Shown: positions 3,981 through 50,322 of the stretch, piece by piece | Layout: the number at the start of each line of letters is the position of its first letter | Numbering within the stretch: position 1 is the stretch's first letter | DNA from: Rhizodiscina lignyota | Lineage: Eukaryota > Ascomycota > Dothideomycetes > Aulographales > Rhizodiscinaceae | Reading direction: 5' to 3' | Length of the DNA stretch: 64,000 bases | NCBI GenBank assembly: GCA_010015805.1 | Contig: ML978125.1 | Coordinates: 558,001 to 622,000 of the forward strand | Made by a program: the position numbers and the translations under genes | Notes under the pieces: generated by a model | What the model was told of the DNA's origin: nothing | The model's database searches: none | Seen by the model: the letters and a program-made list of their open reading frames with translations, nothing else

Positions 3981-5712
3981 ATGGGCCGCTCGCCAATCAG
4001 GTCGGTCGCTGTTATTGGCGCTGGAGCAGCTGGTAAGTTCGAATAGCTCTGTGTTATCTTTCACAGTGCTCTCATATTTTGTAGGTGCAGCAGCTGCAAC
4101 AGCACTGGCCTCCGAGAATGTTTTCGAGGTCATACGTGTGTTTGAACGTCGAGAGGTTCCTGGGGGAACATGGTACCGACTTGTTCATCTAACTTCTCTG
4201 AATATTTGGCCGACAAAATATTAGGATATACGATGCGGATCCTGGAACGATTGAGCTCCATCCTGGAAAACTCCCTCCCGAAGTTGATACCCCACTGAAG
4301 ATTCCGAAGACGGTGCCCCGAACCACTCCTCCGTCTTCACAGTATCGCTATGATAGAACTCCAATCTACGCAGAACTCACGTGCGTTGAGGCAAGAGTAA
4401 TAGGCCAATCCGAAAGATAGATCGCTTACGTGCCCACAGGACTAATGTTCCTGCTATTGCAATGTCATTTTCAGACGAGCCCTTCCCGTATGGTCCATTC
4501 GTACCGCATTGGATACCCAAACAATACATAGAAAGTTACTTTTCATTGCGGCGAACCGATTCCTTTCTTGTCTTAAACACAACAGTTGAGGATGTAACCA
4601 GTATCCCTGCAAAAGGCGACCCCCACGATAGATGGAGATTGACTCTGAGACGGCACGACTCGATAAGAGATGTAGACGTTTGGTGGGCCGAAGAGTTTGA
4701 TGCGGTAATCATCGCTAATGGTCACTATTCGGTGCCAATTGTAAGCGCTTTCCCGATCAATTCTTCCATTGGCCATCCTTTTGCCGTTGGCCGAGTATTC
4801 TGTCAGAGCTAACGTGTCGACACGTAAAAGATACCTGCAGTCAAAGGCTTGAATAACTACATTAATAAATTTCCCGGCATAGTCTCGCACTCCAAGTCCT
4901 ACCGGACTGTTGGCCAATTTGCCAACAAGCGGGTGATTGTAATTGGCAACTCCGCTTCTGGGCACGATATCACAACCCAGCTTGTGGAATCGGGGAAGCC
5001 CAAGCTGCCTGTCTATCAATCCCGGCGATCCAAGTCTAGATGGGATGGCGCAGGTCCTCCGCCAGGGATTGAATGGAAGCCAGTGATTGAGGAGTACAAC
5101 GCCGAGACAGGCGAGATTCTATTCGCTGATAATACTCGTCTAACTAACATCGACGCCGTCATCTACTGCACCGGCTATGGCCCGTCTTTTCCGTTCTGGA
5201 ACGTCGAAGCTAATGGTGGGCCACTGTACGATTATGCGAAAGGCCATCTGAGGGAGAATTACCAGCACACATTCTCCCGTGTATTCCCTCATAATCTGGG
5301 GATAATGGGCTTCCCACGCGTCCTCACATTTCGTTCGTTCGAATACCAAGCAATTGCCCTGGCGCGTCTGTTCGCAGGCCGGCATTCCAAGCCTCTACCG
5401 CCACTTTCTGAGCAGGAGGACTGGGAGAAACGAAGAGCTGAGCTTGTCCAAAGGGAGAGACGGAAATTCCATGACATTGAATGGGATGAAGGCGAGACGA
5501 TGGATTGGTTTCGGTTCCTCTTTGAGCTGAGCGGGTTACCTGTCCTCGAAGATCTGGGCCGGTGTCCACCAGTACTAGGAGATGCCACAAGATGGGCTAT
5601 TGATCATGTTCGGAAGTATCCAGAGCCTGGTAGAGAGGATGGAGAGGGCGACCTGGAGGAGGAAGGATGGGTCATCCTGGAACAGCGCAAGGATAGCTTG
5701 CACTTTATCTAG
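3981..5712 (+). CDS. Flavin-containing monooxygenase (FMO family)
   Basis: Five exons: 3981-4032, 4085-4172, 4225-4380, 4440-4740, 4831-5712; 492 residues with all phases closing. The FAD dinucleotide fold is VIGAGAAG at residues 11-18. The FMO signature FxGxxxHxxxY is present as FPGIVSHSKSY near residues 213-223. The NADPH-binding motif is VIGNSASG near 236-243. Family knowledge: class B flavoprotein monooxygenases use NADPH and O2 to oxygenate soft nucleophiles such as thiols or amines; yeast Fmo1 oxidises thiols. No signal peptide is seen. The ATG at 3981 is chosen because MGRSPIRSVAVIG leads straight into the FAD motif. The stop is 2 bp from an antisense tRNA-Phe-like copy, so the 3' UTR is largely tRNA-derived. 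Confidence 0.9.
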
Positions 5713-5714
5713 TA

Positions 5715-5795
5715 GATTGAACCGGTGCCTTTAGATTCCATGTGATGGCTGAAGTTTTGCTTCAGTCTAACGCGCTCCCAGCTGCGCCATTGCCC
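5715..5795 (-). pseudogene. Truncated inverted copy of tRNA-Phe gene
   Basis: Read on the minus strand, this matches the tRNA-Phe gene at 6226-6321 from its 5' end through the intron to the T loop. I count two single-base losses: one in the variable-loop region and one in the run of G at the 5' end. The last part of the T arm and the 3' acceptor strand are absent, so it cannot fold as a tRNA. The match continues about 9 nt into the 5' flank of the real gene (to 5804). Intron and flank are both included, so it was copied at DNA level and not from mature tRNA. Confidence 0.88.
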
Positions 5796-5834
5796 AATTT
5801 ACAGTTGCCCAATTTACAGTTGCCCAATTTATAG
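5790..5834. repeat. Three tandem 15-bp units at the edge of the tRNA copy
   Basis: The unit TTGCCCAATTTACAG occurs at 5790-5804, 5805-5819 and, with one change, 5820-5834. It is the junction of the tRNA 5' end with its flank, so it was amplified after or during the duplication. Confidence 0.9.
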
Positions 5835-6000
5835 ACAAAGGAACATCTCCTGTACCTCAGCTAAATTCCTTACCTCTTCTCGCGCCACAAGCACGCACCG
5901 CCACCGCTTAGTCAGACACTATTTCAAATTACGATACACGTACAGAGCTCTCACGTTTGAAACTGGAAATGAACATTACTCGAGTCACTCTGAAAATATG

Positions 6001-6029
6001 ATAGAATAGAGGATACCCCTCTATTCTAT
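6001..6029. repeat. Perfect 12-bp inverted repeat (hairpin)
   Basis: ATAGAATAGAGG at 6001-6012 and its complement at 6018-6029 flank a 5-nt loop. No T-run follows directly, so it is not obviously a terminator. It could be a cruciform centre in the tRNA inverted duplication. Confidence 0.8.
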
Positions 6030-6076
6030 AGTGATTTTTAGATTATTTTAATTAGTCTTTTGATATATTTTGTGCA

Positions 6077-6093
6077 GATATTTCAGAAATATC
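6077..6093. repeat. Perfect 8+1+8 palindrome
   Basis: GATATTTC-A-GAAATATC is perfectly symmetric. It lies at the boundary between the AT-rich core and a GC-rich segment. Function unknown. Confidence 0.7.
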
Positions 6094-6225
6094 AATCGGC
6101 GCAGTTTCTGAGCCTCGACGCCCCCGCTCGGGAGTCTCTGGGGCTGTTCACGCAACGAAAATTCACCGGCAACCAGTAAGCGCTAGCTACATAATCCAAT
6201 CAGGTTTTTCTCCCATCTGTAAATT

Positions 6226-6321
6226 GGGGCAATGGCGCAGCTGGGAGCGCGTTAGACTGAAGCAAAACTTCAGCCATCACATGGAATCTAAAGGTCACCG
6301 GTTCAATCCCGGTTTGCCCCA
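6226..6321 (+). tRNA. tRNA-Phe (GAA), intron-containing
   Basis: The acceptor stem GGGGCAA/TTGCCCC is perfect over 7 bp (6226-6232 with 6314-6320; discriminator A at 6321). The D stem is GCGC/GCGC, the anticodon stem TTAGA/TCTAA, and the T stem ACCGG/CCGGT around TTCAATC. The anticodon loop reads CTGAAG then A after removal of about 23 nt inserted 3' of position 37, the standard nuclear tRNA intron site. The anticodon GAA decodes Phe. A run of six T follows immediately. Confidence 0.93.
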
Positions 6322-6322
6322 A

Positions 6323-6328
6323 TTTTTT
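6323..6328 (+). terminator. RNA polymerase III terminator of tRNA-Phe
   Basis: Six consecutive T begin 2 nt after the acceptor stem, the usual Pol III stop. Confidence 0.85.
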
Positions 6329-8748
6329 GGCGTTTTCTTTTACTACTGCTTTCTTCTGTCTCTCCCCCTTTTTTTTAAACAAAATTTTATAGTCAACATG
6401 TAATCTTACAGAGTGCATAGGGAAGGAAGGTGCGACTGTGGGATGACTAATGCGTGATCTTTTGCAACTGCCAAACGTGGATTTCCGTGAAAGGCTCAAC
6501 ATTGAACTAATAAGTTGACATGTAATGCATACCACACATACCACACATGTAATGCATGCCCCAGATTGTACAAGCTTTTAAGGAATGACGATGTGATTCA
6601 CAACTGAACTATCTATCATACCGCTTGACGCCTCGCCTGATACGACATGCTCTTCACAGATTCATCTCATTTATTTCGCTTCGGGCTAGTTATACATCTC
6701 GGCGATCTATTAAAGCCCAATGCCTCTATTGTATTCGCATGGAAGGAGGCATTAAGCGTCATCCTTCTGAAGGCAACTAGCAACCAGTAACGGTTCACAC
6801 GCTCTCGACCTCCGGATCGAAGATATTTGAAAGTGGTAATGGTAATCGATGAACGCGCTGTCTTTAAATCAAATTATGAAAGTCATATGGCATTGGGTGC
6901 TCTCAATTTGTACTTGGCGCCCATGGCGCCAAGTTGCTGGAGAAGTTCTTCGATTATGCATTGGAGCTCTTTCATTAGTTCTCTTCTTCATCAAGACTCT
7001 CCATCGCTCACTCGATGGTCCCAGTTCCTGGCTGATACGGATCGTTTAGCTAAAGCCATCAGACTTGAGATCGACCGCGCGAGCAAATGACCAAGGTAGG
7101 CGCCATCCACTTTGACTATCCAGCTCGTCGATTTGTTGGCATCTCAAGTATCTGATTATGCTGGTTGCGTCACGCACATGCTTTCAGGGATACGGGATGT
7201 TTTGTGTTGCACAGCTGCAAGACATTGGTGAACTGGAAATATTTCCAGATCCATTTCTTCGTTTTGGGATCTTGCCATTCGAGTCTACAGCCGAGTCTGA
7301 AGGCGTCTTCCCAGTCAAGGAATGGCCCCGCGTCCAGCAGAGGTGCAATATGCACAGGCTGCCTTTCGCCCTTCGGCGCGATATGGGATCGTGACGAGGG
7401 GCCAGGGATGCAAGTTTGCGTAGCACCTGTAAGCGCATAATAACTGACGGATCGAATGGCCAAAATACCAAGCCACAACATGAAGGCCGTTTCCGCACCC
7501 ACACTTCGAGATTGAGGTGTACGAGGTTGGTAATATGGTTGAGGTCCATGGACGAAAGAGTCTTGTTGTATGAATAAGTTTTCTTCGTGCACACAGACGA
7601 GAGCATGAATGAAAGCTTAGTTCGAGATGACTTGGAGTGTGGTTGTTATACATGAACAGATTCAACAAATATACTTCGTATTTAGAGAAGAGCGCGTACA
7701 TCATAGCGGCGGGATGTGTCGCCGCTACGCAACTATTCCTTTGTGGTCCACCAAGGGGGCTAATCCGATGAGTTGAAGAGGCCAACCTTCCTGCAAGCGC
7801 GAAGTAGATTTTCGGATTTTTCTTATTCCTTCGAGGTCACGGAGGACGCACTATGCAGTGGAAGCGCAGCAGGGCCAGTTGGAGCTCGATGCAGCCGCTG
7901 GAGAGAATCGAGTTCCAATTCGCTGCAGCAAGCTATTCGCTTGTTCGAGAGCAGATTTCGATGCTACTCCTGGAGGAGACGCTGGAAGAGGTGTGTACTA
8001 TGTGTTGTCTCAAGACCCAGGCGAAGTGAGCAACCGAGGAAGCGATGAAGTGCCAGGACACCAATCTAGGACAAAAAGTTAAGTTATAATGCTCTTGGCG
8101 CGGTCAGAGACCGGTCAGGGATTGGGTTGATTCTCCATGAAAGAATAGAGGTACTCAGATAGAGTGTCTGCTTGTACCTATTTCCGAGGAGGTTTGTTCT
8201 CCTTAATATTTCCTGAAACCATATTTTCAGGGCCTGCCGGGTCGCGTATCCTGTGTATCTGGAATCGATATCTCAGACGGAGAGGGATTCGCTCATCATG
8301 GAATGGAATGCTGAAAACGATAGCTGCGTGGCATGTTTGTGATCGTTCAGTGTTTCTGCCTCTACAGCGTCCCAAGAGTGAACGCATCGGCATTGAAATG
8401 AGGAATATCCGGTCGTGGCGGGCTATGAGAATGGAAAAGGAGGCAGTTAGGCAAGGCTATCATATCATCTGAATATCTGATCCCTTTTGAATCGATGCAG
8501 ATACCAATTTCAATAAATGACATGGAAGCCCACAGTATCGCCTAACCGTACAAGTCCCAGGAAAGATATGGTACAGCTTATGGTGCGGTGAAAGTTGAAG
8601 CAGGTACGAAAGGTCTCGCCGCACCTGCCTCGACGATCACAAAACCACTAGCGCGCCAAGACCAACAACGCCTCCACGCCCGCCCTCCCTCGGCCTCCAA
8701 TTGATATCAGAACGCCAAAAAGGAATGCAAATTCGAAGCAAAAAGAAA
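6329..8748. other. Gene-poor stretch, no supportable gene
   Basis: About 2.4 kb between the two tRNA genes. Several open frames of 60-156 codons overlap on both strands without a recognised domain or a splice model that closes. The least implausible is a minus-strand segment around 7170-7592 that ends in a basic, aromatic-rich stretch (LEWQDPKTKKWIWKYFQF), but I find no coherent start or flanking exons. A perfect 8+3+8 inverted repeat (TTGGCGCC / GGCGCCAA) lies at 6914-6932. Confidence 0.4.
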
Positions 8749-8836
8749 TGGACGAATGGGGGATCGAACCCCAGACCTCCCGCAAGTTGGATCACGGTTA
8801 TGCGAAGCGGGCGCTCTACCACTGAGCTATACGCCC
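8749..8836 (-). tRNA. tRNA-Ala (CGC), intron-containing
   Basis: On the minus strand the gene starts GGGCGTATAGCTCAGTGG (A box) and has T stem TGGGG/CCCCA around TTCGATC (B box). The anticodon stem CCCGC/GCGGG closes a 7-nt loop TTCGCA+T once about 16 nt 3' of position 37 are removed, giving anticodon CGC. The acceptor contains the G3:U70 wobble pair, the alanine identity element; position 6:67 looks mismatched. Five T follow downstream on the minus strand (complement of 8740-8744). Confidence 0.93.
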
Positions 8837-9148
8837 TGAGGGTGAAAATTCAGCTGGTCTAGGGGTCAAGGATTTTGATATACTAAACCGCTTATAGAAG
8901 CTGATTGCAACCCTTGCTTCCCCGGATAAATAATAATCCGCTCCGAAAGGACCGTGCTCCTTAAGTTTTCAGAGGCCATCAAAGCTACGAACTTTCACGT
9001 AGACAGCACCAGGCTACGATAAACACGGCTTCGTCCTCTTCCTCGCTAGTTCCCAGCGATATCACACCCTCCTCTACCAAAGGCTGCTTTGCTGGGCCTA
9101 TCTCGATTCTATCTATCCTGAAAAAGTGCGTCGCAGCATTCATTCAAG
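8837..9148. other. BRR2 promoter / 5' UTR region
   Basis: About 310 bp between the tRNA-Ala 5' end and the BRR2 start. It must hold the BRR2 promoter and the upstream flank of the divergent tRNA. Nothing else is recognised. Confidence 0.5.
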
Positions 9149-12100
9149 ATGGCGGACGGCAAGAAGGAAAACAACTTGGCCCAGTTCAAGTACTCGGCCA
9201 TGTCAAACCTGGTTCTCCAGGCAGACAGAAGATTTATCACACGCCGAGGCGACGAGAACACTGGCGATCCGGAATCACTGGCTGGGCGCATCAACATACG
9301 CGACATGGGTTCACGCATCACACGCGACGAGGCCCCTGTGCAAAAGAAGAAGCCCAAAGGCCCTTCAGATATCGAGAGGGGGAGCATAAGAGAAGGTGAA
9401 GACGTCCTGGAGCGGGAGCAGAAGAAGAGGAAGCGTGGCGAACCTGCCCAGTTGCGCGGAGCGGGCATTCTATCAAATCAGGACCTTCTGATTGAGGACT
9501 TGAGATATCGCCCACGGACACCTGCGACACGCGCGACGTATGACCTGATAACTACCATCGTAGGGAGGAATCTTGGTGATGTACCGAATCACGTCACGAG
9601 GAGCGCGGCAGATGCAGTTTTGGAGTTCCTCAAGGATGAGTCGCTGAAGGACTTCGATAAGAAGAAGGAAGTGGACGAGATTCTAGGGACAACACTGGGC
9701 TCGAAAGAGTTCAACGAGTTGGTCAACCTGGGAAAGAAGATCACAGACTACGATGCGCAAGACGAGGACGAGAACATGGAAGACGGCGATGGTGCCGACG
9801 GAGCTGACCTCGATGAGCGACAAGGTGTGGCAGTCGTCTTTGATGAAGAGGATGAGGATGAAGAAGGTGCTGGCCAAACATACGAAGTCCGCGACGAGGA
9901 TGACACATCAGACGAAGAGGCAGAAGGTGGGGGTGAAGATGGCGAACCCACAGATGCAGCTGCAGAAGCAGGAGCCGAGGAGGATGGAGTGGACAAGGAT
10001 GAAGAGATGGTCATTGACGGAATGGGCACCGCGGAATCAAGCAAGGAGTCTGCAGAGAAATATATCCCAGCGCATGAAATCGACGCGTACTGGTTACAGC
10101 GTCAAATTGGTCAGATTTATGACGATCCACACACGCAACAGGAGAAGACGCGGGAAGCGCTCCAAATTCTGTCGGGCGTTGGAGAAGATGGTGAAAATAA
10201 GCCTCTCCGTGAGATTGAGAACGACCTCATGGAGCTTTTCGATTACGAGCAGCACGAGTTGGTCTCCAAATTAGTGCTGAACCGAGACAAGGTTGTTTGG
10301 GTCACCCGATGGCGCCAGGCTGCTGAAGATCGCGATGCTAGAAAAGCGATCGAGGGCGAAATGATAACCGAAGGGCATCGAAACATTCTCACCGAACTCC
10401 GATCACGAGAAGATCCAAGCACCATTGAAGACAGTGCTGGACCGAAAAAGATGAAGCTCGACCTCATGGACATTGATATGTCATCGCGCGCTAATGGTAA
10501 TGGGCAGCCTGCGGACGGTGCAAGAGACGGTGGCCTTGTGGGTGGTTTGCAACCAAAGCGATTGATCAATTTGGAGAATCTGGTATTCGATCAGGGCAAT
10601 CACCTCATGACGAATCCCAACGTGAAACTCCCTCAAGGATCAATTAAGCGAACGTTCAAAGGGTACGAAGAGATTCATGTACCTGCTCCAAAGTCGAAGC
10701 GTGGACCAAACGAACAACCAGACATGCCTACTAGTGCTTTGCCGGAATGGGCTCGCATCGGGTTTGGCTCATCTGCAAAGCTGAACCGTATTCAGACTCG
10801 ATGCTATCCTTCTGCTTTTGGAGACGATGGCAACATGCTTATCTGTGCGCCCACTGGCTCTGGTAAGACCAACGTCGCAATGCTTACCATGCTCCGCGAA
10901 ATCGGAAAACACCGAAATCCCGAGACTGGCGAAATCGCCTTGGATGACTTTAAAATCATTTATATCGCTCCTCTCAAGGCTTTGGTACAAGAGCAGGTGG
11001 GCAATTTTGGCAAGAGATTGAAACCATACGGAATTACCGTGTCAGAACTCACTGGAGACCGGCAACTCACAAAGCAGCAAATCGCGGATACTCAGATCAT
11101 CGTCACAACACCCGAGAAATGGGATGTTATCACACGGAAAGCCACGGACACAAGCTATACCAACCTCGTGCGGCTTATTTGTATCGATGAAATCCATCTT
11201 CTTCACGACGACCGTGGACCAGTACTCGAGAGTATTGTGAGCAGGACAATTCGACGAATGGAGCAGACGGGAGATCCAGTTCGTCTGATCGGACTGAGTG
11301 CTACGCTACCAAACTACCGCGACGTGGCGAGCTTCCTCCGTGTTGATCCAATCAAAGGCTTATTCCATTTTGATGGTTCCTTCAGGCCGTGCCCGTTGAA
11401 GCAAGAATTCATCGGCGTAACGGATAAAAAGGCGATCAAGCAGCTCAAGACGATGAACGACGTGTGCTACACGAAAGTGCTTGAACAGGTTGGACAAAAC
11501 CGTAATCAGATGCTCATCTTCGTCCACTCAAGAAAAGAGACTGCAAAGACTGCAAAGTACATTCGAGACAAGGCGCTTGAATTGGAGACTATCGGCCAGA
11601 TTCTGCGCAGTGATGCAGCAAGTCGGGAGATTCTTCGACAAGAAGCGGAAACAGTGACAAACACTGATCTCAAAGATCTCATGCCGTACGGCTTTGGCAT
11701 CCATCACGCTGGAATGAGTCGTGCTGATCGAACTTCGGTCGAAGACTTGTTTGCCGATGGGCAGCTCCAGGTGCTTGTCTGTACAGCTACCCTTGCTTGG
11801 GGTGTAAACCTTCCCGCGCATACCGTGATCATCAAGGGGACGCAGATCTACTCTCCCGAAAAAGGTAGCTGGGTAGAGCTAAGCCCACAAGACGTGTTGC
11901 AGATGCTTGGCCGAGCAGGTCGACCACAGTATGACACCTTCGGAGAGGGTATCATCATCACAACACAGACTGAGATGCAGTATTATCTCTCTCTACTAAA
12001 TCAGCAGCTCCCGATCGAGAGTCAGTTCATGAGCAAACTCGCCGACAACCTCAATGCCGAAATTGTGCTTGGTAGCATACGCAACCGAGACGAAGGTGTC

Positions 12101-15100
12101 GAATGGCTCGGCTATACCTACCTCTTTGTTCGCATGCTTCGTTCACCCGGACTTTATAGCGTCGGTGCTGATTATGAAGATGACGATGCTTTGGAGCAGA
12201 AACGTGTAGACCTCATTCACTCGGCTGCTTCTGTCTTGGAAAAGTGCAATCTGATCAAATACGACAAACGAACAGGACGGCTGCAATCCACTGAGCTTGG
12301 CAGAATCGCCTCCCACTACTACATCTCCCACAACTCGATGCTGACATACAATTTGCACATTTCGCCTTCGATCACCACCATTGAACTCTTCCGCGTCTTC
12401 TCATTGAGCGAAGAGTTCAAATATATCCCAGTCCGACAAGACGAGAAGTTGGAGCTCGCAAAGCTTCTAGGACGCGTACCTGTACCGGTTAAGGAGAGCA
12501 TCGAAGAACCTCACGCAAAGATCAACGTCCTGCTCCAGGCATACATTTCTCGCCTCAAACTCGACGGCTTGGCTTTGATGGCAGACCTGGTATACGTAAC
12601 TCAATCCGCCGGCAGAATCTTACGCGCGATTTTTGAGATTGCGCTGAAGAAGGGCTGGGCTTCTGTTGCCAAACTTGCCCTCGACTTGTGTAAGATGGCA
12701 GAGAAGAGGATGTGGCCAACAATGTCACCACTTCGCCAATTCCCAAGTTGCCCTCGAGACATCGTGCAAAAGTGCGAGCGTATCGATGTGGCATGGTCGA
12801 GCTATTTTGACCTCGATCCTCCTCGCATGGGCGAACTGCTAGGCATGCCAAAACAAGGCAAAACTGTGTGTGCATTGGTCGAGAAATTCCCAAGACTCTC
12901 CATCGAAGCTCAAGTACTCCCAATGACACGAACAACTCTTCGTGTCGAGCTCACGATCACGCCTAGCTTTGAATGGGACGATTCGATCCACGGCGCTGCA
13001 GAGATGTTTTGGATTATGGTTGAAGACACCGATGGCGAGGAGATCCTCTACCATGACCAGTTCCTTCTCCGGAAGCACTACGCACAAAGCGAGATGAATG
13101 AACATCTTGTCGAGTTCACAGTCCCGATCTCTGAGCCAATGCCGCCCAACTACTTCCTTTCTCTAATTTCGGACAGGTGGATGCACTCTGAGGCCAGGAT
13201 ACCTCTGTCCTTCCGAAAGATCGTTCTGCCAAGCAAATTCCCGGCGTATACTCCGGTACTGGACCTCCAACCTCTTCCTGTCTCTTCTCTGAAGCGACCC
13301 GATTTCCGGGCACTATATGAGGACTTTGATCAATTTAACAAGGTACAAACGCAGGTCTTCAATTCCTTGTTCACGACCAATGACAACGTCTTCGTTGGCG
13401 CTGCTACGGGCATGGGCAAGACGGTGTGCGCCGAATTTGCCATTCTTCATGCATGGTCTAGCAGTGACGCCAAGAAAATTGTCTACATCGCACCATTCCA
13501 AGAACTCGTTGATATTCGACTTAAAGATTGGCAAAAACGACTGGCTCGAGTAGCTGGTGGCAAGAACATTGTGAAACTCACCGAAGATATGAATATAGAC
13601 TTGAAGCTGCTCGGGGAAAACGACCTGATCTTAGCCACTCCAACGCAATGGGATGTGCTATCTCGAAAGTGGCGAACAAGAAGAAACGTTCAAGCGGTAG
13701 AGCTCTTTATTGCGGACGATCTTCACATGCTTGGAGGGCAGGGGGGCTACATCTACGAGGCCATCGTCACACGCATGCAACTTATGGCAAAGCAACTGGA
13801 GTTAAACTTGCGCATTGTGGGCCTGGGCGTGTCCGTGAGCAACCCTCGAGATCTTGGCGAATGGATTGGAGCGACAAGACACAACATCTTCAACTTCAGC
13901 CCTCACATACGCTCAGTCCCGCTCGAATTACACATCCAATCTTTCTCGATCCCGCATTTCCCTTCACTCATGCTGGCAATGGCCAAGCCGACATACCAGG
14001 CTATTTTGCAGCACTCTCCTGACAAACCCGCAATGGTCTTCGTTCCAAACAGAAAGCAAGTCCGTGCAACGGCTGCAGATCTTCTGGCTGCTTGTGTCGC
14101 GGACGATGATGAGGATCGCTTCTTGAACGCGCCAGTTGACGATATTTCTGCCATTCTGGAGAAGATTGGTGAACGTTCGCTTGCAGAGTCGCTCTCTCAC
14201 GGCATCGGCTATTTCCATGAAGGCTTGAGCAGCTTTGACAAGCGCGCAGTCGAGCATCTCTTCAAGGTTGGCGCCATCCAGGTTATGCTCGTGTCACGGG
14301 ACTGCTGCTGGCAGATCGATAGTACAGCATACCTAGTCATTGTCATGGGTACACAGTTCTTCGACGGTCGCGAGCATCGATACATTGATTATCCTATCAG
14401 CGAAATGTTGCAGATGTTCGGTAAAGCTGGCAGAGTTGGAGAAGACAAGACCTGCAAAGCTGTCCTCATGGTTCCGGCCGTCAAGCGCGACTACTACCAG
14501 AAGTTCTTGAAGGAAGCCTTGCCCATGGAAAGCCAGCTGCAATCGTTCTTGCACGATGCCTTTGTTACAGAGATCAGTTCGAAACAGATTGAATCCATGC
14601 AGGAAGCTATGGACTGGGTCACTTACACTTACTTCTACCGACGAGTACTAGCGAACCCGAGTTACTACATGTTCCCAGATGCCTCGCATGAAGGTCTCAG
14701 CACGCACCTCTCGGAGATAGTCGAGTCAACCTTGACCGATTTGGCGGAAGCAAAAATAATTGAGCAGGACGAAGAGGAAGACGCCGTACTGCCTACGAAT
14801 CCAGGCATGGTTGCGTCTTACTACAACATCAGCTTCGTCACGATGCAGACGTTTCTCCTCTCTCTGAACGACAAAACAAGGCTGAGGGCCTTCCTGGAGA
14901 TTGTCACATCTGCTGCCGAGTTCGAGAGCCTCCCAATACGACGACACGAAGATCATGTTCTCCGACGGGTATACGATCGTCTGCCGATCAAGATGTCTTC
15001 CGATCCCGTCTTCGAGTCTCCGCATTTCAAGGCCTTTGTGCTTCTGCAAGCGCATTTCTCAAGGATGCAGCTACCGGTGGATCTGGCCAAGGACCAAGAG

Positions 15101-15829
15101 ATCGTTCTGAAAAAGATCTTGAATCTACTGGGCGCATGCGTCGACGTCCTCTCTTCTGAAGGTCACCTCAACGTTATGAAGGTGATGGAGATGTCGCAAA
15201 TGGTCGTACAAGCCATGTGGGATACCGAGAGTCCCCTCAAGCAGATACCGCACTTCGACGATCAGCTGGTCAGGATTGCGAGAAAGGCCGGAATCCATGA
15301 CGTTCTCGAATTCATGGAGGCCATGGACCCCGATGAGAATCCCGACAAAGACAAGCTCGTCGAGAAACTTGGCCTGAACGACGCGCAACTCCGAGATGGC
15401 GCGAGGTTCATTAACAAGTACTACCCGAGCGTCGAGTTGGCTATGGAAGTCGAAGAGCCCGACAACGTCGTCACTGGCATTCCAAATATACTCAACGTGA
15501 CCATCGAGCGGAACCTGGATGAGGACGAAGAGCTAGTGACTGAAGTGCATGCGCCGTTCTTCCCGGCTGAGAAGACGGAAGGCTGGTGGCTTGTTGTGGG
15601 AGATGAAGAGACGCATACATTGTACGCAATCAAGAAGGTCACTGTGGGCAGGACTACAAAGGTGAAGCTTGAATATACGTTGCACAGGCCTGGCGAGCAT
15701 GAGTTGACGCTTTATTTCGTGAGCGATTGCTATTTCGGGCTTGATCAGGCACCGACATTCAAGGTTACTGCGGCGGAGGCTATGGAGCAGGATGAGGGTG
15801 AGGAAGAAGAAGAAAGCGATGAGGAGTAG
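9149..15829 (+). CDS. brr2: U5 snRNP RNA helicase Brr2
   Basis: One uninterrupted exon of 2226 residues, the usual Brr2 length. The N-terminus (MSNLVLQADRRFITRR, then DPESLAGRINIRDMGSR) is diagnostic, followed by an acidic linker around residues 200-300. The first helicase cassette has motif I APTGSGKT near 567-574, DEIH near 680, SAT near 715 and QMLGRAGRPQYD near 917-928, then a Sec63-type module. The second cassette has GMGKT near 1420 but DDLH instead of DExH near 1523 and a divergent motif III, matching the known inactive C-terminal cassette; a second Sec63 module and acidic tail follow. Brr2 unwinds U4/U6 during spliceosome activation, in the nucleus. The ATG sits in a good context (CAAGATGGCG). 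It converges on the copper transporter 184 bp downstream. Confidence 0.97.
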   Translation: MADGKKENNLAQFKYSAMSNLVLQADRRFITRRGDENTGDPESLAGRINIRDMGSRITRDEAPVQKKKPKGPSDIERGSIREGEDVLEREQKKRKRGEPAQLRGAGILSNQDLLIEDLRYRPRTPATRATYDLITTIVGRNLGDVPNHVTRSAADAVLEFLKDESLKDFDKKKEVDEILGTTLGSKEFNELVNLGKKITDYDAQDEDENMEDGDGADGADLDERQGVAVVFDEEDEDEEGAGQTYEVRDEDDTSDEEAEGGGEDGEPTDAAAEAGAEEDGVDKDEEMVIDGMGTAESSKESAEKYIPAHEIDAYWLQRQIGQIYDDPHTQQEKTREALQILSGVGEDGENKPLREIENDLMELFDYEQHELVSKLVLNRDKVVWVTRWRQAAEDRDARKAIEGEMITEGHRNILTELRSREDPSTIEDSAGPKKMKLDLMDIDMSSRANGNGQPADGARDGGLVGGLQPKRLINLENLVFDQGNHLMTNPNVKLPQGSIKRTFKGYEEIHVPAPKSKRGPNEQPDMPTSALPEWARIGFGSSAKLNRIQTRCYPSAFGDDGNMLICAPTGSGKTNVAMLTMLREIGKHRNPETGEIALDDFKIIYIAPLKALVQEQVGNFGKRLKPYGITVSELTGDRQLTKQQIADTQIIVTTPEKWDVITRKATDTSYTNLVRLICIDEIHLLHDDRGPVLESIVSRTIRRMEQTGDPVRLIGLSATLPNYRDVASFLRVDPIKGLFHFDGSFRPCPLKQEFIGVTDKKAIKQLKTMNDVCYTKVLEQVGQNRNQMLIFVHSRKETAKTAKYIRDKALELETIGQILRSDAASREILRQEAETVTNTDLKDLMPYGFGIHHAGMSRADRTSVEDLFADGQLQVLVCTATLAWGVNLPAHTVIIKGTQIYSPEKGSWVELSPQDVLQMLGRAGRPQYDTFGEGIIITTQTEMQYYLSLLNQQLPIESQFMSKLADNLNAEIVLGSIRNRDEGVEWLGYTYLFVRMLRSPGLYSVGADYEDDDALEQKRVDLIHSAASVLEKCNLIKYDKRTGRLQSTELGRIASHYYISHNSMLTYNLHISPSITTIELFRVFSLSEEFKYIPVRQDEKLELAKLLGRVPVPVKESIEEPHAKINVLLQAYISRLKLDGLALMADLVYVTQSAGRILRAIFEIALKKGWASVAKLALDLCKMAEKRMWPTMSPLRQFPSCPRDIVQKCERIDVAWSSYFDLDPPRMGELLGMPKQGKTVCALVEKFPRLSIEAQVLPMTRTTLRVELTITPSFEWDDSIHGAAEMFWIMVEDTDGEEILYHDQFLLRKHYAQSEMNEHLVEFTVPISEPMPPNYFLSLISDRWMHSEARIPLSFRKIVLPSKFPAYTPVLDLQPLPVSSLKRPDFRALYEDFDQFNKVQTQVFNSLFTTNDNVFVGAATGMGKTVCAEFAILHAWSSSDAKKIVYIAPFQELVDIRLKDWQKRLARVAGGKNIVKLTEDMNIDLKLLGENDLILATPTQWDVLSRKWRTRRNVQAVELFIADDLHMLGGQGGYIYEAIVTRMQLMAKQLELNLRIVGLGVSVSNPRDLGEWIGATRHNIFNFSPHIRSVPLELHIQSFSIPHFPSLMLAMAKPTYQAILQHSPDKPAMVFVPNRKQVRATAADLLAACVADDDEDRFLNAPVDDISAILEKIGERSLAESLSHGIGYFHEGLSSFDKRAVEHLFKVGAIQVMLVSRDCCWQIDSTAYLVIVMGTQFFDGREHRYIDYPISEMLQMFGKAGRVGEDKTCKAVLMVPAVKRDYYQKFLKEALPMESQLQSFLHDAFVTEISSKQIESMQEAMDWVTYTYFYRRVLANPSYYMFPDASHEGLSTHLSEIVESTLTDLAEAKIIEQDEEEDAVLPTNPGMVASYYNISFVTMQTFLLSLNDKTRLRAFLEIVTSAAEFESLPIRRHEDHVLRRVYDRLPIKMSSDPVFESPHFKAFVLLQAHFSRMQLPVDLAKDQEIVLKKILNLLGACVDVLSSEGHLNVMKVMEMSQMVVQAMWDTESPLKQIPHFDDQLVRIARKAGIHDVLEFMEAMDPDENPDKDKLVEKLGLNDAQLRDGARFINKYYPSVELAMEVEEPDNVVTGIPNILNVTIERNLDEDEELVTEVHAPFFPAEKTEGWWLVVGDEETHTLYAIKKVTVGRTTKVKLEYTLHRPGEHELTLYFVSDCYFGLDQAPTFKVTAAEAMEQDEGEEEEESDEE

Positions 15830-45718: not shown

Positions 45719-48700
45719 CTATGCATACATATCCTCATCGTCACCAGCCGCATCGCCAAATGCCCCCGAACCATGGCCATCTACACTCTTCCCTTTCCCT
45801 TTCCCCTTGACAGCACTGCCATTACTCTTCAAGTAGTCCGTCTTGATAACGTACTCGTCCTCCTCATCGTCCTTCTCCTCGTCCACGACGCCATCGGTGC
45901 CCGTCGACCCAGTACTGGGCACGCGATACACGCGCTCCGGACTCTCGCTCGCCTGTGAGCCCGGGCCAAATCGGCCTTTGCCTTTCCCAGCTACATGTGC
46001 GACACCGCTTCCTCCACCGCTTCCCCCACCGCCGCGACCTCGGCTGATACTGCGCGCCTTGATGCGATCCTTCGCTTGTTTCATCCATGACCCTCTTCTC
46101 TCCTTGTCAGCGGCCTGAAGACTGGGGACCACCAGATTCTCCTTCCCACCCGAGCCTGCATTCAGCACTAACGCTTCATTGTTCGCGCTGTCACCAGCAA
46201 CCTCATCCTTCTTATCCTTCGCACCAACCGTCGCGCCCTCAAACGCGCGCCTCACGCGCTCGTAGTGCCACAGCTCATCCTTGCTAACGCTCGGCACGAG
46301 CTCTCTCTTCGCGTTCTCGAAGTCCTCTTCCACAACTACAACCTCCGTGTCCTCGTCGCCTGCTAGGTGGTCGAAGAAATACGCTATTGAAATCGGGTCG
46401 GAGTCGGGAGGTAGTGTTTTGTTGTGCTCTGCGACTTTGGCGTCGACGTTTCTTGCTTGCCGTGTGATGGCTTTGAGCATGGCGTCTGAGCAGAGAGCGT
46501 AGAGGTCGGCGCCGGTGTAGGTGAACGGTAGTGTTGATGCCACTCGGTTGAGGGAGAGCGAGGGGTGGAGGGTGAATCTGGTTTAAGTTGTCAGTTCCCG
46601 TTCCCAAACGCCTGAATGAAAGGTGCACATACTTCCTAGTCAGCGCCTCCAAAACCTTCAACTGCCCCTCATGCGTATCGTTAACTCCCAGGTAAAGCAT
46701 CTTATCGAACCTACCCGGTCGCAGCAACGCCTGGTCAAGCAAGTCCGGCCGATTCGTTGCACCAATGACAAAGACGCCTTGCCCACCACCCGCACCACCA
46801 TCTTCTCCTCCGCCGCTCATGCCGTCCAACTCGGCGAGCAGTTGCGACACAATGCGGTCCATCACGCCGCCACTGTCACCCTGGTTGCCACGTTTCGGCG
46901 CAACAGAGTCAAGTTCGTCAAAGAAGACTACACAAGGACGTGCATCGCGTGCGCGCTGGAAGACTCGTCTGACGTTGGCTTCAGATTCACCGATGTACAT
47001 ATTCAGCAGTTCTGGTCCTTTGACGGAGAAGAAATTGAGGCTGAACTCGGTCGCGATGGCTTTCGCGAGCAACGTCTTGCCAGTACCGGGTGGACCGTAG
47101 AACAGTATGCCAGAGCGCTTCTTCATGCCCTTCGCGAAGAGCTCAGGCCGTGAGAGAGGCAGCTGAATGGTCTCGATGACGGCGGATTTAACGTGTGACA
47201 GACCGCCCACATCGCTCCATTGCACATTCGGGATCTTCGGTGCGCCAATTGAATCCGCGAAGTTCTTGCGTGCGGCGTCGACTGCGGTCGTAAGGTCGGC
47301 AGATGTGAGTGTGAGGTTTGTTGAGTGTCCGGCTAGAGTAAGGTCTTTCAGCGTTACTTCCGCCAATGGCAGTCCGGTATCGATATCAGACTTCCCAGAT
47401 GTGAGCGCCTTGTTGGCACTCGCAGTGATCTTGTCGAGCCTACTTTGTCTAGCAATCAAGGCGCGATCAACAACATCAACCAGATCCCCGGCCACTAGCG
47501 CAGCTGTCTTGACGGCAACCGATGACAGTGCAACGTCTGGCGCAAGACGGATACCAGCATCTTCGACAACGCCACGAAGTATGCCTTCTCGCTCACTCTC
47601 GTCTGGCGCTGTCATTTCCAACTCATGCGTAAAGAGACTACGAATGCCCTCAGGCACCTTCTCAATCTCCGTGGTAGTTGCGATCAGGACTCTCGAGTCG
47701 CCCAGTATTTCCCTGAGTGCGGTAACCATCCTCTCAGCGTCCAACTTCTCAACATGCTTAATCAACAGCGCAGTAAACTCTTTCCCACAACTCAAAGCGC
47801 GTTCCGCTCGAGCTTTTAGGAATGCTTCCGTTTTAGTGTCGCCTCCTTCTGTCAGGATATCAAAAGCGTCAATAGAGAAGGTATGTAATCCAAGGTCTTC
47901 ACACGCTTGCATCGCTGTGGTTGCTTTGCCAATATTACGTTGAGTTGAGGTGAGTAATATAGCAACTGGCGGTAGGCCAAGATGAATGGCACGAGGAGAC
48001 ATCGCAGCAGAGATGAGCTCTCTCAAACGGCGTCGAAGGCTAGAGATATATGGTGTCGGCAGATCTGTAGAGACAATCCCACCCCCAGGTCCTCTGGCTT
48101 GCGATCCAGCAGGCTTTCGTAAGCCAAGATAATATTGCCAAGTATTGCTGACGGTGGGAGGGATCTTTGCCTTTTCGCCTCCGGCCTGAACCATTTTCGT
48201 GTTCGAAGCATCAACAAAAGTGACGCCACCCCAGATGTCTTCCTCTTCCGCCTCAATCTTGTTGGACGATACGATGTCTCCCACTTTGAACCAACCCACT
48301 CCACTAGCCGCAACGGTCTTCCCAGAGTCGGCTCCACACTGCGCGTTGCTTTTCACTTTTGAGATCAGTTCCTCATTGGTCATGTCGTCCGCATTACCTC
48401 CTTCGAAGACCGCTTTGCCAAGTGACTCGTCAACCGCAATACCCACGAGATCTCCTTTCTTCACAACACGTCGTTTCCGCTCGAAGAAATCTTTCAAGCC
48501 GGCGAAGAGACTAGGTTGGACCAAACGGTCAGACGACAGTGGAGTTGCTATTTTTACTAAGGTAACCTCTTTCGCTAATGGTGGTAAGGTTGAGGACGGG
48601 ACTTTGCCTTTTGAGCCTGCATGTGGAACGGAGCCGTCTTTGGTATTTGTCAGTGCCGAAATCTTAAGATGCGTAGGTGAACCAAGGTTTGCCAAAAGCA

Positions 48701-50322
48701 GAGGTGGAAGATGGACCAAGGAAGTAGGTGGAAGCAGATTGCTACCACCTAAAAATGACAGAGGTCTTTCGTCGGTCTTGTGCACGATATATTTGTTGTC
48801 CTTCTTTGACATGAACTCTGGCAGACCAAATATCTTCGCTACGCGCCATTCTTGCAGTTCATCTTCTTCGTTTGTGAAGGAGGCAAGGTGCCAATGGCCA
48901 AAGCCATCTCGCGATGACTCTGTAGTGGATTCAATTCTGACCCAGTCGCCCGAGAAGCATCCCAACTTGACGAGTGCAGCTGTGTCAACGAAAATTCGCG
49001 CTTCGTCGTCATCGTCTGTTCCAGGTTTCGGATATAGAAGTTCATCTGGGATATGGTCAAGCAGGCCATATGCTTTGAAAGTCTTACTCTTCACTCCGCC
49101 TCCTCGAACTGTGGATGTTGAGAATGTCGAGTAGATTGAGCCTGGAGTAGCTATACCGTTTGGAAATGGCTGGCCAGGCCTGGGTGTGGCGGATGCTTGC
49201 GACATCATCCCAGAAGTGTGAGAAGGTAACGATGGCGCTGATAACGATATAATGTCCTCTGAATCGTCTGAGAGATCATCCGCATCGGTCTCAGATGCCT
49301 CTGTTTCACTGAAGGTCGAGGCTTCATCAAGCGGTGTAGATGACTGCGTCTGTATTTCCTCGGTTGCAGAGTAGAACTGCTCATTCGAAGTATCTTCATC
49401 CTCCTCCGCAATGCCGTTGGTCAGTGATGGCCCTCGTTTATGCCCAACGGGCTTTGTGATAATCTCTGCATCTTTGCTCTTTCCTTGCAAGATCACAACT
49501 CGCGTGCTGGGGAGAACTATGCCTTGCGAAACGGGTTCACAGATTGTAATCTTTGCCGGAGGTGGAGGCACATGTGTGATGGGGTGAGCTGGAAGTGGAA
49601 GAGGTAGCAAATCTCCTGAGTGGACGAGACGAGGAGCGCTGAGAGCACCACGAACAGCGTCGCGCCACTTCCGCTGCCTCAGAATATTTTGGCTCGCATC
49701 GCTCAGTTCCGTAGCATTAGCCTTTTTGTCATTCTTGATACCAAATCCACCACCAAATTTGTTGTGCACGTCCTCTAGCTTCCTCAAAGCTTCTGTGTCC
49801 AGCTTCACATATATCGTCTCGAGGCCAAGTGGTACAACTTCAGATATGCGGATCTCAATTGGCGTGTCTTTCTTCTGCAAGGGTTTGTTTGGAGATAGGT
49901 TCCGCAACGTGGTTGCGAAGGACTGGAGGGCGAGCGAATTCGCAGAGAATTGGAGGGACGAATGCGGCCGTTGGATCAGGGTATCGTTTTTGGTAGCGGA
50001 TCGCACCGGTAGGATCGTCCACTGCGTGGAGTCGACGGACATGGCAGTGAGAGGCATCCATGGTGTAATAGCGACATAGTAGACGCGATTCGCGCTGTCA
50101 TCCGATGGTGCTATAAAATATCAGCATCTTCAACGAACTTCCATGCTACGAGTGCTTACTCCTGAGTCCCGGGAACAGGTCTGCGAAAAGGTCTTCAGAC
50201 AGTATCCCAACGTCCTGCTTCATCCGCTCATCAAGCAGCAAGTGAGCAGATATCGAGGGCCTATTCAAACGTCTCCGTCTGCGTCGCTTCCGGTGCATGG
50301 GAACTGCGCTTCGATTCTCCAT
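45719..50322 (-). CDS. pex6: Peroxisomal AAA ATPase Pex6
   Basis: Three exons: 50322-50160, 50110-46633, 46577-45719; 1499 residues, phases closing. The first exon supplies the family's N-terminus: HRKRRRRRRLNRPSISAHLL then LSEDLFADLFP, joined to VYYVAITPWMP. An N-terminal domain with an acidic Ser-rich insertion precedes a degenerate D1 ATPase (Walker A position reads RNIGKATTA). The active D2 has GPPGTGKT near residue 1060, DELD near 1119, and ATNRPDLLD..LLRPGRFDK. The C-terminal tail (Gly/Arg/Lys-rich, about 150 residues) is longer than in yeast. Pex6 with Pex1 extracts ubiquitinated Pex5 from the peroxisomal membrane; D1 inactive and D2 active is the known pattern. It is divergent from the lipase gene. 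Confidence 0.96.

Follow-up and report, generated by a model that had tools for sequence, protein, structure and literature searches.

The window analyzed here, a 64,000-nucleotide stretch of the Rhizodiscina lignyota genome, contains an intact nuclear tRNA-Phe gene, a truncated copy of that gene on the opposite strand and, directly before the copy, an FMO-like flavin monooxygenase gene (Table 1).

Table 1. Coordinates of the features at the tRNA-Phe locus, as positions of the window
Feature	Position	Strand	Basis
FMO-like flavin monooxygenase, 5 exons, 492-aa model	3981..5712	+	Splice model made by eye, Pfam, PDB
FMO exons	3981-4032, 4085-4172, 4225-4380, 4440-4740, 4831-5712	+	
TAG at left edge, repeated at right edge (5832-5834)	5713..5715	.	
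Truncated tRNA-Phe pseudogene copy (leader, exon 1, intron, exon 2 to T-loop position 60)	5715..5807	-	BLAST, gapped alignment
Tandem array, 15-bp unit TTGCCCAATTTACAG, 2.8 copies, 100% matches	5790..5831	+	
Spacer between aligned arms, 406 bp	5808..6213	.	
Source arm (leader and tRNA-Phe through position 60)	6214..6308	+	BLAST, gapped alignment
Intact tRNA-Phe, GAA at 6259-6261, 23-nt intron after position 37	6226..6321	+	Rfam, positional parse

The intact gene scores 57.8 bits against the Rfam tRNA model (RF00005) and combines a cloverleaf, a GAA anticodon and an intron after position 37 with a Pol III T-run (T6, 6323-6328) 3' of the tRNA. Its identity as tRNA-Phe, named in the original prediction, was borne out by a parse by position, in which GAA occupies positions 34 to 36 and the intron measures 23 nt. 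ARAGORN labels the same gene Ala in one mode and Pro in another, a disagreement that we put down to misplacement of the intron by the program. CTTCAG in the intron is complementary to CTGAAG in the anticodon loop and forms a hairpin with it in the computed fold. Against shuffled sequences, the tRNA alone scored z = -2.56, and -3.96 when its flanks were included. Across the 33.4-Mb genome, a 29-nt pattern from exon 1, allowing up to 3 mismatches, occurs in two places, which are the source and the copy. A gapped anticodon-arm pattern found 3 places (2 in its reversed control), and a looser version found 13, the source and copy included (reversed control, 11). ARAGORN found no further tRNA-Phe among the 16 loci taken from these two gapped patterns (L033-L048); it called a tRNA at two of the 16, both holding the known gene. 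The gene may be the only tRNA-Phe gene of the genome, as judged by patterns that could miss a divergent one in an assembly that is perhaps incomplete.

That an inverted duplication of this gene is present in the sequence was upheld by both self-BLAST of the window (low-complexity filter on) and gapped alignment. The minus-strand copy at 5715-5807 aligns to 6214-6308 on the plus strand at 96.8% identity over 95 columns. Identical bases fill 92 of these columns, and the rest comprise one mismatch at 6216, on the outer edge of the alignment, and two single-base losses in the copy, exactly the number that the original prediction had given as approximate. One loss shortens GGGG to GGG in the acceptor stem and the other removes the T of AAGGTCACC; from 6217 to 6308 there are zero substitutions. 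Because the arm pair has an E value of 1.5e-36 and is the sole non-self pair in the window at E <= 1e-3, a chance match is far excluded. The arms had been placed at 5715-5804 and 6221-6312; the edge at 5715 holds, while the copy in fact ends at 5807 and the source arm runs from about 6217 to 6308. The gap between the aligned arm ends is 406 bp, and that between the ungapped 73-nt arms is 421 bp, which agrees with the 420-bp spacer first described. Likewise, the roughly 9 nt of 5' flank said to lie inside the repeat correspond to the leader at 6217-6225.

The copy retains the 9 nt of 5' leader and the whole intron and, as had been proposed, is truncated in the T arm, where the alignment stops at T-loop position 60. 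Missing from it are the T arm's 3' half and the 3' strand of the acceptor stem; at 97% identity to its source, it is a tRNA pseudogene. Box B positions 61-62 read T-A in the copy where the source has C61-C62, and no Pol III terminator is nearby, the next T4 on the copy strand lying at 4829-4826, 886 bp on. RNA of the copy alone folds about as shuffled sequences do (z = -0.67, with 47 of 200 shuffles as good). ARAGORN called no tRNA at the copy, and a search of 5000-9500 with Rfam returned no match there up to an E value of 1. Given the broken box B and the 886 bp before any T4 run, a Pol III antisense transcript running from the copy into FMO was judged unlikely. RIP was rejected on the absence of substitutions between the arms over 6217-6308; a single C-to-T difference at 5832, in the third array unit, may simply be native flank. 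From its sequence, the copy would appear to be an inert relic that yields no tRNA, makes a poor Pol III gene and leaves the FMO protein unaltered, and nothing in the analysis suggested a function for it.

The original prediction did not mention the tandem array that forms the leader/acceptor end of the copy. The 15-bp unit of this array corresponds, in reverse complement, to the leader and the first acceptor bases minus one G, and this loss is common to all units. As every unit carries it, the G was presumably lost before or with the expansion of the array. When the array end is set at 5831, the insert measures 116 bp with TAG on both sides. The pair of TAGs at the edges is a possible, weak sign of a 3-bp target duplication or of microhomology; junction microhomology of the inverted copy amounts to just 1-3 bp and could be chance.

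Between the arms, the spacer has no second copy in the genome, with the query 5836-6213 matching itself and its own hairpin on the other strand (E = 0.49). A mobile-element identity for the spacer was rejected, as this query matched nothing else in the genome. The hairpin, at 6001-6029, has a perfect 12-bp stem and a 5-nt loop; all other perfect hairpins in the window are shorter, and the fold of 5990-6045 has a z-score of -7.1. Stems of at least 12 bp also arose in 13 of 300 Markov-simulated windows, so this hairpin stands out only mildly. It recurs nowhere else in the genome at 0-1 mismatch; at 2 mismatches, two further places were found, and the reversed control gave one match per strand. 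Hairpins with a stem of at least 8 bp number 18 in the window, two of them between the arms, compared with 8 to 15 in five simulations.

The FMO model, whose splice sites were drawn by eye on GT-AG borders, matches Pfam PF00743 (82.5 bits) and, over residues 5-423, PDB entry 2gv8 (E = 2.8e-45). Its stop codon is the TAG at 5710-5712, followed by a second TAG at 5713-5715, and the copy, starting at 5715, begins 2 bp beyond the stop, exactly as first described. By BLAST, residues 27-455 match the C10 paralogue at 36% identity. This paralogue aligns to FMO residue 471, after which 27 residues remain in the paralogue versus 21 in FMO. We considered and rejected a shortening of FMO by the copy: the stop precedes the copy, and the protein ends about where its paralogue does, so the enzyme is not visibly shortened. 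Elsewhere in the window, an uninterrupted 2226-aa ORF with BRR2-type splicing helicase domains lies at 9149-15829, and a 1257-aa ORF with domains of PEX6, a peroxisomal AAA ATPase, lies at 46284-50057.

An Rfam tRNA survey, in which 63 of 934 candidates were scored, placed tRNAs at a minimum of 27 sites in the genome. An inverted partial copy within 1.5 kb was found at one of the 27, the tRNA-Phe locus alone; a nearby inverted tRNA copy is not a common outcome in this genome. Two other places, L009 and L017, match each other as neighboring tRNA genes, and L025 has an 18-nt match (E = 7e-4). The flanks of about 5 kb searched at five of the 27 places held no copies. ARAGORN marked introns at 15 of the 27 places found (L006-L032, a lower-bound set). 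At a distance of 2.4 kb from tRNA-Phe, the minus strand carries an intron-containing tRNA-Cys gene (GCA; 8749-8836), and a second tRNA-Cys gene lies on contig C8. L009 and L017 are adjacent Met-CAT and Ile-GAT genes by ARAGORN (600025-600173 of contig C12, 908 kb long), a pair that looks mitochondrial in style and may perhaps be part of a piece of mitochondrial DNA in the contig.

How did the copy arise? We consider it likely that a template switch produced a local inverted duplication with slippage, leaving a head-to-head tRNA pseudogene that is inert, all of these taken together. Replication or repair near the tRNA-Phe gene would have switched template onto the opposite strand, and about 90 bp of the gene would have been synthesized in inverted orientation just past the FMO stop codon. 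Slippage during that event or at a later time could have multiplied the 15-bp end, with a head-to-head pair of tRNA gene and inert pseudogene as the outcome. Both the switch and this order of events are inferred from the anatomy of the locus. The locality, the inversion, the intron, the one truncated end and the one slipped end would all fit a template switch; of its expected traits, the local and inverted placement and the 15-bp array are observed, and the junction microhomology is a mere 1-3 bp. Weighing on the other side are the short microhomology, the presence of such a copy at just one of the 27 tRNA places, and an empty site with joined flanks that has itself to be reconstructed; moreover, since all array units share the lost G, the account would require two or more steps or else an error-prone one.

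The original prediction of a recent DNA-level duplication survives in its second part, which the intron, the leader, the local placement and the one-sided truncation strongly favor. Recency is only weakly bounded: with zero substitutions in 90 aligned bases (6217-6308), the 95% upper limit on divergence is about 3.3% per site (3.2% for 93 sites), in a comparison within one genome to a source that is a constrained gene. In all, this small inverted duplication is most likely an ordinary copying accident of DNA replication or repair.

Published yeast systems offer partial parallels to a template switch at such a site. In the fission yeast assay described in PMC6358216, which was built on direct repeats, a head-on tRNA gene raises recombination 1.5-fold when there is no replication-restart barrier and 2.3-fold when there is one, a rise that the authors read as template switching; a co-directional tRNA gene had little effect in the absence of the barrier. 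Our locus resembles the inverted duplications left by template switching under perturbed replication, for which tRNA genes are one trigger (PMC6358216), in being short, local, slipped at one end and beside a tRNA gene. It differs in that the switch would be read here from anatomy alone, with minimal microhomology, whereas the published assay measured direct repeats. For inverted repeats in budding yeast, as reported in PMC10164571, widening the spacer from 12 to 200 bp cuts rearrangement about 20-fold in the wild type, while in a mutant with long single-stranded regions spacer size is without effect.

Because intron and leader are both in the copy, the source was either gene DNA or a primary transcript. 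The copy could then be RNA mediated, made by T-loop cleavage of an unspliced pre-tRNA, reverse transcription and insertion, a course that we consider improbable. It would account for both limits of the copy: the start, 9 nt before the tRNA, is close to the usual position of Pol III start sites, and the end falls in the T loop, where cleavage into tRNA fragments is known to occur. The TAG seen at each edge might represent a target duplication of 3 bp. However, random landing within 510 bp of the source in a 33.4-Mb genome has a probability of about 3e-5, which would put a cDNA by chance so near its own gene only very rarely. Moreover, the junctions show no 3' tail and no target duplication longer than TAG, and the 15-bp array is left without explanation. 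tRNA-derived SINEs and retroposed tRNA pseudogenes are a known class of tRNA-derived sequence, and the copy resembles such SINEs in being a tRNA-derived piece with a leader. Unlike them, it lies beside its own source and has no family of copies: source and copy were the only places found (<=3 mismatches in 29 nt, 33.4 Mb), and the edges carry just TAG and no tail.

A regulatory role for the arrangement has a slim chance. On this account, the FMO 3' UTR would be antisense to pre-tRNA-Phe and would pair with the pre-tRNA, or fold within read-through RNA, giving double-stranded RNA for RNAi or affecting FMO 3'-end formation. The arms are computed to pair at -178 kcal/mol, with 68 nt uninterrupted, and a 641-nt read-through RNA (5700-6340) folds as one long hairpin (z = -19, 20 shuffles). 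Double-stranded RNA would be possible because the genome encodes RdRP domains (5 matches at 3 places) and Piwi (Argonaute) domains (7 matches at 4 places). However, any inverted duplication of this sort would pair as strongly, so the pairing does not point to selection; stop codons interrupt the matched frame of some Piwi pieces (introns or decay may be the cause), and pre-tRNA is short-lived and structured. An effect of the copy on FMO 3'-end formation or through double-stranded RNA would be speculative. The stronger form, in which the FMO 3' UTR is a long antisense of seemingly the only tRNA-Phe gene and an RNA duplex couples FMO expression to pre-tRNA-Phe processing (or RNAi), strikes us as very improbable. 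An assembly or library artefact in the form of a fold-back chimera is hardly credible, as such chimeras are expected to be exact, whereas these arms differ by two indels, carry a 2.8-unit array at one end and flank a 406-bp spacer that occurs just once in the genome.

Genuine though it is, the tRNA pseudogene left by the template switch favored here is ordinary, and arrangements of its kind are known already. Head-to-head pairs of tRNA genes and pseudogenes occur in eukaryotic genomes, as described by Bermudez-Santana et al. 2010 (PMC2888827), and ours is a homogeneous pair in the terms given there: adjacent and antiparallel, with 5' ends facing, less than 1000 nt apart and of the same isotype. 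It shares with the pairs described in that source (PMC2888827) the isotype, the opposite strands (<- ->), the spacing below 1000 nt and the one broken member. It differs from them in that the broken copy stops short within the T loop, has an array of 15-bp units at its other end and abuts coding sequence. That survey, as described, counted tRNAscan-SE detections, whereas the copy here went undetected by ARAGORN and Rfam.

The main value of the locus is as a clean example: a small inverted duplication that adjoins a tRNA gene and still has its tandem-repeat end. The copy can mislead tRNA annotation and small-RNA mapping. If the two arms were transcribed together, they would form a long, near-perfect hairpin, which could be the seed of a new small-RNA locus.
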